Shown here: piece after piece, positions 17,174 through 17,392 of the stretch | How positions within the stretch are numbered: position 1 is the first letter of the stretch | Layout: every line of letters starts with the position of its first letter | From: Sphingobium herbicidovorans | GTDB taxonomy: Bacteria > Pseudomonadota > Alphaproteobacteria > Sphingomonadales > Sphingomonadaceae | DNA: 64,000 nucleotides | Assembly: GCF_002080435.1 (NCBI RefSeq) | Contig: NZ_CP020538.1 | Span: 2,413,501 to 2,477,500, forward strand | Direction of reading: 5' to 3' | Translations under genes and position numbers: made by a program | Notes under the pieces: model-generated | Told to the model about the DNA's origin: nothing | Databases searched by the model: none | The model's input: only the letters and a program-made list of their open reading frames with translations

Positions 17174-17358
17174 TTAACCAAAAAAAGTTGGCGTGATCCA
17201 GGGGCTGAGTCTTTTGAGTCACACCACCTCATATTGAGTCTATAATGGTAAACAGGACTCAATATGTCGTGGCTACCCCTTTCGTTCTCGGATGGTTAAC
17301 CTTTTTATCAGGCTCGACGTCTAAGCTGTTGATCTTGACGAGGGACTCCCAAGGACTC
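17174..17358 (+). promoter_or_regulatory. ccrM promoter/leader with six GANTC sites and CtrA-like half-sites
   Basis: GANTC, the CcrM methylation target, occurs at 17207, 17216, 17236, 17256, 17344 and 17354 (first base), six in 152 bp. The third and fourth are inside a perfect 11-bp inverted repeat (17230-17240 and 17256-17266) that brackets a TATAAT hexamer at 17241-17246. TTAACCA at 17174 and TTAACCAT (minus strand, 17292-17299) match the half-site bound by CtrA in Caulobacter. In Caulobacter, GANTC sites in the ccrM leader make transcription methylation-sensitive and CtrA activates the promoter. I infer a similar control here. The exact start of transcription is not known. Confidence 0.65.
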
Positions 17359-17392
17359 AACGCTTGGCCTCGAAACGAATGGGGGTCACGTA

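Follow-up and report, generated by a model that had tools for sequence, protein, structure and literature searches.

The DNA analyzed here, referred to as the window, is a 64-kb stretch (64,000 nucleotides) from Sphingobium herbicidovorans containing the gene for CcrM, the central cell-cycle methyltransferase of Alphaproteobacteria. The own genome of the strain holds a single full-length match to this protein, the other match covering only a 61-residue stretch, and the closest named CcrM that we found is that of Sphingobium limneticum (91%). Upstream regions of ccrM were compared across 114 loci of the order Sphingomonadales, comprising the window, 80 relatives, 4 loci from a class-wide search and 29 loci from the genus. 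The latter were used out of 59 other genomes with a match, in a search of 61 genomes that included the own genome. The features discussed below are, in the order of their position in the window and with a strand where one applies:

11945..12643, plus strand: rnhB, encoding RNase HII (PF01351)
17207..17211: outer GANTC; the inner GAGTC follows at a distance of 29 bp
17216..17220: extra GANTC, common to some relatives only
17220..17225, plus strand: CACACC block, conserved in the anchored consensus and reaching into the outer edge of the left box
17224..17239: left NrdR-type box of 16 bp, identified by regular expression and as part of the top matrix pair; the 18-mer 17223-17240 reads ACCACCTCATATTGAGTC
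17236..17240: GANTC fused to the inner half of the left box, reading GAGTC (90 of 114 order loci)
17256..17260: GANTC fused to the inner half of the right box, reading GACTC (93 of 114 order loci)
17257..17272: right NrdR-type box of 16 bp, its centre 33 bp from that of the left box; the 18-mer 17256-17273 reads GACTCAATATGTCGTGGC
17280..17287, plus strand: TTTCGTTC block, conserved in the anchored consensus, some 8 bp beyond the right box on its 3' side
17294..17301: GGTTAACC, CtrA-like half-sites, marked by the conservation of TTAACC between the modules
17335..17340, plus strand: predicted -35 element TTGACG (TTGAC is present at 113 of the 114 order loci, for the most part at a phased distance)
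17344..17348: GANTC in the -35/-10 spacer, from the site list and the anchored consensus
17354..17358: GANTC at the upstream edge of the expected -10 region, from the site list and the anchored consensus
17393..18517, plus strand: ccrM, encoding a GANTC adenine-N6 DNA methyltransferase of 374 residues (PF01555, E=7.8e-68; RAMA, PF18755)

About 4.7 kb of other genes (12644-17392) separate rnhB from ccrM in the window, and an rnhB end within 600 bp of ccrM was found at 43 of the 114 order loci.

The six GANTC sites listed in the preliminary description were all found before ccrM (17207, 17216, 17236, 17256, 17344 and 17354), and the two outer pairs are spaced, as described there, by 9 and 10 bp. 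The chance expectation of 0.6 sites given with them was too high for this genome, because GANTC is depleted: the window contains 69 sites compared to 283 in shuffled sequences, a reduction of about fourfold. The cluster before ccrM is the densest of the 64-kb window, and in 400 kb sampled from the own genome, with 1.32 GANTC sites per kb, at most 4 sites fall within 152 bp. Dinucleotide shuffles of the 283-bp intergenic region yielded six or more sites in 3 of 5000 cases. All six cluster sites read GAGTC or GACTC (GASTC, 6/6), compared to 164 of 529 sites in the 400-kb sample. Across the window as a whole, 56 of the 69 sites are GAATC or GATTC. The comparison of orthologous upstream regions, a check proposed in the same description, revealed GANTC clusters at similar places in nearly all 114 Sphingomonadales loci, with exceptions such as locus L086. 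The outer site lies exactly 29 bp from the inner GAGTC in 81 of these loci and 30 bp from it in 11. The GANTC cluster at ccrM is real and conserved, and it fits a model in which methylation would feed back on ccrM.

The perfect 11-bp inverted repeat, reported earlier to enclose a TATAAT, was likewise borne out. Its arms (17230-17240 and 17256-17266) match exactly across a 15-base loop, and TATAAT lies within the repeat at 17241-17246. Among the 114 loci, TATAAT is present in the spacer of the window alone, for which reason we rejected it as a promoter part; it is incidental. The two arms form an inverted repeat because each of them is a near-palindrome of the NrdR-box type. The methylation feedback suggested in the preliminary description therefore stands in part: the conserved GANTC clusters fit it, whereas the symmetric repeat is explained by NrdR-type boxes.

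NrdR is an ATP/dATP sensor, and the distal dyad at 17223-17273 matches a tandem pair of NrdR boxes with a 17-bp spacer, corresponding to three helical turns. In this arrangement of two palindromic boxes, the dyad resembles the box pairs of ribonucleotide reductase promoters, which NrdR binds at spacers of 14-17 bp, or about three turns (PMC12051234), a range that includes the 17 bp found here. A regular expression taken from the same source, two boxes C.[AT].A[AT].[AT].G with the short spacer of 20-23, matched the 64-kb window once, at 17227. It matched 36 of the 114 order ccrM upstream regions, compared to 2 matches in 583 kb of the rest of the loci and to 0, 2 and 0 of 114 in three in-gene control stretches. 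Two chance-like matches in the 400-kb own-genome sample indicate that the expression is not unique to true targets; it is also strict for these, since only 5 of 20 nrdA and 3 of 27 nrdJ upstream stretches match it.

A palindromic matrix was trained exclusively on 27 nrd promoters, including the own nrdA, that were kept from 47 scanned nrd loci by the criterion of a best pair scoring at least 18. With this matrix, the window pair ranked top in 464 kb of the own genome, a sample without nrdA, scoring 26.0 compared to 14.7 for the next pair. The best pair of the locus fell into the ccrM upstream region in 79 of 81 loci, a ranking from which L144-L146, with best pairs scoring 14, were left out; for L014 and L058, the best pair lies within the ccrM upstream region but at a shifted place. 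An untrained consensus (ACACWATATATWGTGT) ranked the ccrM pair first in 73 of the 81 loci and a shorter version (CACWANATNTWGTG) did so in 67. When about 300 scrambled palindromes were ranked in the same manner, they reached a mean of 13.7 loci, a 99th percentile of 66 and a best value of 74, as compared to 73 for the real consensus; a small number of palindromes that share the key positions thus perform no worse than the real one. Scanning centre distances from 18 to 49 bp across the 81 loci, the pair score peaked at 33 bp, and in a search confined to 31-33 bp the distance was 33, 32 and 31 bp in 79, 28 and 7 of the 114 loci, respectively.

The anchored consensus of the distal module reads GAGTC-N-GCCACACCaCnAnATnTTGAGTC-N-GACTCAAnATcTTGTGG-N-GGACTC-N-TTTCGTTC. 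As in the boxes of ribonucleotide reductase genes, the C and G pairs required for NrdR binding (PMC9110341) are conserved: the left C is kept in 106, the left G in 114, the right C in 112 and the right G in 110 of the 114 loci. This result concurs with those of the regular expression, the matrix and the pair distance. The distal module is missing from one locus (L086) and very weak in another (L067). The inner half-sites read GAG instead of the GTG usual in NrdR boxes. When the genome was searched at the DNA level for further copies of the module, the site itself was returned and, beyond it, no more than a match of 14 bases. Two profiles were run in addition. The nrd-built profile R1, a weak one with 0.43 bits per position, recovered only nrdA from the whole genome and missed ccrM, a result that counts against the NrdR reading. 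From 12 ccrM loci we built profile R2, which recovered ccrM alone among the 150 of 1146 first-look candidates that were scored. The own genome encodes an nrdR that exceeds the family cut-off and has the DNA-reading residues D15 and R17. The co-occurrence of nrdR and operator offered no contrast, as nrdR was matched in 80 of 80 class genomes, 79 of them over the cut-off.

A distinguishing property of the boxes at ccrM is that their inner half-sites coincide with GANTC. Both boxes carry GANTC as inner half-site in 75 of the 114 loci and at least one box does so in 108; of the 27 nrd training pairs, 1 contains a GANTC at any position. Where present, the left inner site is always GAGTC (90/90) and the right one always GACTC (93/93). 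GAGTC begins with the invariant G of the left box, and GACTC ends with the right box's nearly invariant C; the methylated adenine therefore adjoins these positions. From this geometry we infer that methylation might alter NrdR binding.

The proximal module has the consensus CTTGACG followed by two GANTC sites and provides the predicted -35 element. In the window, the centre of the right box is 70.5 bp from TTGAC. Among 113 loci, this distance falls into three groups, 59.5-60.5 bp (3 loci), 69.5-72.5 bp (97 loci) and 80.5-82.5 bp (10 loci), such that 110 of 113 loci follow steps of approximately 10.5 bp; in this as in all conservation counts, the loci share ancestry and do not represent independent events. 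Outside the three groups are L014 and L058, which we read as mis-assigned pairs, and L067, which by the same reading has no real pair. The sequence between the right box and the core promoter is poorly conserved. Steps of roughly one helical turn suggest that the polymerase and a complex bound upstream need a fixed orientation towards one another. Judged by eye, the core promoter has no good -10, as is expected for a promoter needing an activator such as GcrA. The conserved -35 at 17335 puts the predicted start at about 17370, downstream of all six GANTC sites, and the preliminary description of these sites as part of a transcribed leader is therefore probably wrong. The GANTC sites at 17344 and 17354 would be 12-26 bp upstream of this predicted start; for a GcrA-dependent promoter, GANTC is expected no more than about 40 bp from the start.

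To see how far these modules extend, we turned to 85 upstream regions of other families, obtained from 206 non-family genomes with a match among 289 searched. TTGAC followed by GANTC occurs in 56 of the 85, with two GANTC sites in 41, and the core promoter is therefore probably old. For the box pair, 84 of the 85 regions were used, one being too short. A NrdR-like pair scoring at least 18 was present in 32 of the 84, compared to 0 of 84 in a control stretch, and the strict regular expression matched 5 of the 84. Of the 32 strong matrix pairs, at least 18 have a left box that extends into the rnhB end and thus into partly conserved codons; for 7 other strong pairs no rnhB motif was found, and some of these may be coding. 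In loci such as L090, L097, L101 and L225, the C-terminal codons of rnhB (KIL) spell a NrdR-like half box, which may be a coincidence or an operator within coding sequence. Phasing outside the order gave p=8e-5 for n=23, with one author-picked locus per family and rnhB-overlapping pairs included, and p=0.023 for n=8 in a hand-picked set without such pairs. Because of the rnhB codon overlap and the 5 of 84 strict matches, conservation across the class is uncertain, and we set the class-wide claim aside, rnhB codons confounding at least 18 of the 32 strong pairs; that the operator goes back to a common ancestor of the class is possible. Within the Sphingomonadales, 5 of the 114 left boxes overlap rnhB, 38 are outside of it, and for 71 no rnhB end was found within 600 bp.

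In our judgement, NrdR probably controls ccrM through a candidate operator built of CcrM's own sites, within a promoter of two modules. The distal module at 17223-17273 would be the operator for this nucleotide-sensing repressor, with an ATP/dATP-loaded NrdR tetramer clamping and bending the two boxes three helical turns apart. The proximal module would be a housekeeping promoter with two GANTC sites behind the -35, which methylation might activate via GcrA. When dATP is high, NrdR would restrain ccrM, and when replication drains the dNTPs, NrdR would release it. As GANTC forms the inner half of each NrdR box, the methylated adenines would adjoin the G:C pair that NrdR is expected to read, and methylation of the boxes and their occupancy by NrdR could influence each other. 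The sequences themselves show the match of the boxes, their spacing, the fusion with GANTC, the conservation in Sphingomonadales and the stepped distance to the -35, whereas NrdR binding, the direction of regulation, the sensitivity to methylation, the use of GcrA and the start site are inferred. Against NrdR control stands the position of the boxes about 70 bp upstream of the -35, given that at known targets the polymerase site is often covered in part by the NrdR boxes (PMC9110341). The pair also differs from those of ribonucleotide reductase promoters in preceding a DNA methyltransferase gene and in its GANTC inner half-sites. A broader proposal, which we offer tentatively and with more doubt than confidence, is that ccrM is a core and ancient NrdR target in Alphaproteobacteria, its operator consisting of CcrM sites at which occupancy and methylation exclude each other and thereby time re-methylation. 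Under this proposal, dNTP supply, fork passage (through hemimethylation) and CcrM level would all be read at one DNA element, and the feedback circuit would make re-methylation of the chromosome coincide with the completion of DNA synthesis.

The distal dyad might alternatively be the site of a methylation-reading activator such as GcrA, in which case the AT-rich palindromes surrounding GANTC would resemble NrdR boxes only incidentally. In alphaproteobacteria, methylated GANTC is bound by GcrA (PMC3667746), and few parts of the dyad are as well conserved as GANTC. However, conservation extends beyond GANTC to C....AnATnT....G, following both the pattern and the spacing of NrdR boxes. GANTC is absent from the left inner half-site at 24 and from the right one at 21 of the 114 loci, yet the left G persists in 114 loci and the right C in 112. 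Moreover, YGAKTCG, the extended motif for GcrA activation (PMC7987155), fits none of the six GANTC sites on either strand. We regard a GcrA-type dyad as unlikely.

Similar reservations apply to a simple methylation feedback, in which the GANTC cluster alone would be sensed, together with CtrA half-sites and without NrdR. Such a mechanism would agree with the conserved density of GANTC and with the CtrA-like half-sites noted in the preliminary description, which are indeed present: TTAACC occurs in the window at 17174 and at 17294-17301, and between the modules (-130 to -58) in 66 of 114 loci compared to 0 of 114 in a control stretch. A CtrA-like input to ccrM is possible on account of this difference, but TTAA-N7-TTAA, which we take to be the motif of a full CtrA site, occurs in the 300 bp before ccrM at 0 of 114 loci. 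Furthermore, feedback through the cluster alone leaves the conserved bases outside GANTC, the 33-bp spacing of the pair and the stepwise distance to the -35 unexplained, and we think it improbable that it accounts for the region. Least credible is a function of the inverted repeat as RNA, either as terminator of upstream transcription or as leader hairpin. The perfect 11-bp repeat with its 15-base loop would suit such a structure, yet no Rfam family scored above cut-off in 16700-17500, the sole match being a microRNA model with E=1.2, far under its cut-off. Complementarity of the arms is near the shuffled value at every position, indicating no covariation; the largest gains (0.04, at positions 14 and 16) are both within GANTC. 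The conserved promoter, in turn, sits 3' of the repeat, and a role as RNA appears very improbable.

The E. coli switches agn43 (OxyR/Dam) and pap (Lrp/Dam) have regulator sites that overlap methylation sites, with mutual exclusion, and do not control a methyltransferase gene. The boxes at ccrM likewise overlap methylation sites, a parallel that is relevant only if they bind a regulator. In Caulobacter and Sinorhizobium, MucR, and also CtrA in a synthetic promoter, occlude GANTC from CcrM (PMC5172544); in the case of NrdR control, a sensor of dNTPs would do the occluding, and would do so at ccrM itself. With GANTC in its core promoter, ccrM resembles the sigma-70 promoters activated by GcrA and CcrM (PMC7987155), and it differs from them in having two GANTC sites behind the -35 and no YGAKTCG. 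P. aeruginosa topA, proposed as a NrdR target outside ribonucleotide reductase genes, is likewise a gene of chromosome maintenance that has a NrdR box (PMC4409342); the box at topA is a single one and the mechanism there has been doubted (PMC12051234), whereas ccrM has a candidate pair.

The literature that we searched on ccrM promoters and NrdR contained no report of NrdR sites at ccrM, and no paper on NrdR in Sphingomonas was found. The one article among the matches listed that names both NrdR and CcrM (PMC10483419) deals with Acinetobacter and does not connect them, and in the main text of a large NrdR regulon study (PMC5343134) ccrM does not appear. In Caulobacter lacking ccrM, nrdA expression drops, and the nrdA promoter has GANTC (PMC3973325), so that the wiring between the two genes could be reciprocal. 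A Caulobacter strain deleted for nrdR exists (PMC12186491). If NrdR indeed controls ccrM, a dNTP-sensing repressor would link precursor supply to epigenetic state, and NrdR would gain a paired-box target outside ribonucleotide reduction. It would also provide an example, open to experiment, of an enzyme controlled by a repressor whose operator contains that enzyme's own methylation sites. Such control would bear on the timing of ccrM in groups where CtrA is not essential, as reported for Sphingomonas melonis (PMC8116508).

DnaA could provide a further input, its control of ccrM having been predicted earlier for alphaproteobacteria (PMC2877005). Strict DnaA boxes occur upstream of ccrM in 39 of the 114 loci compared to 0 of 114 control stretches; the window has none in its ccrM upstream region. 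These boxes lie mostly in the spacer of the NrdR boxes or near the predicted start, just 3' of the core promoter. They are found near -150 in L009, L041, L061 and others, and near -30 in L013, L043, L075 and others.
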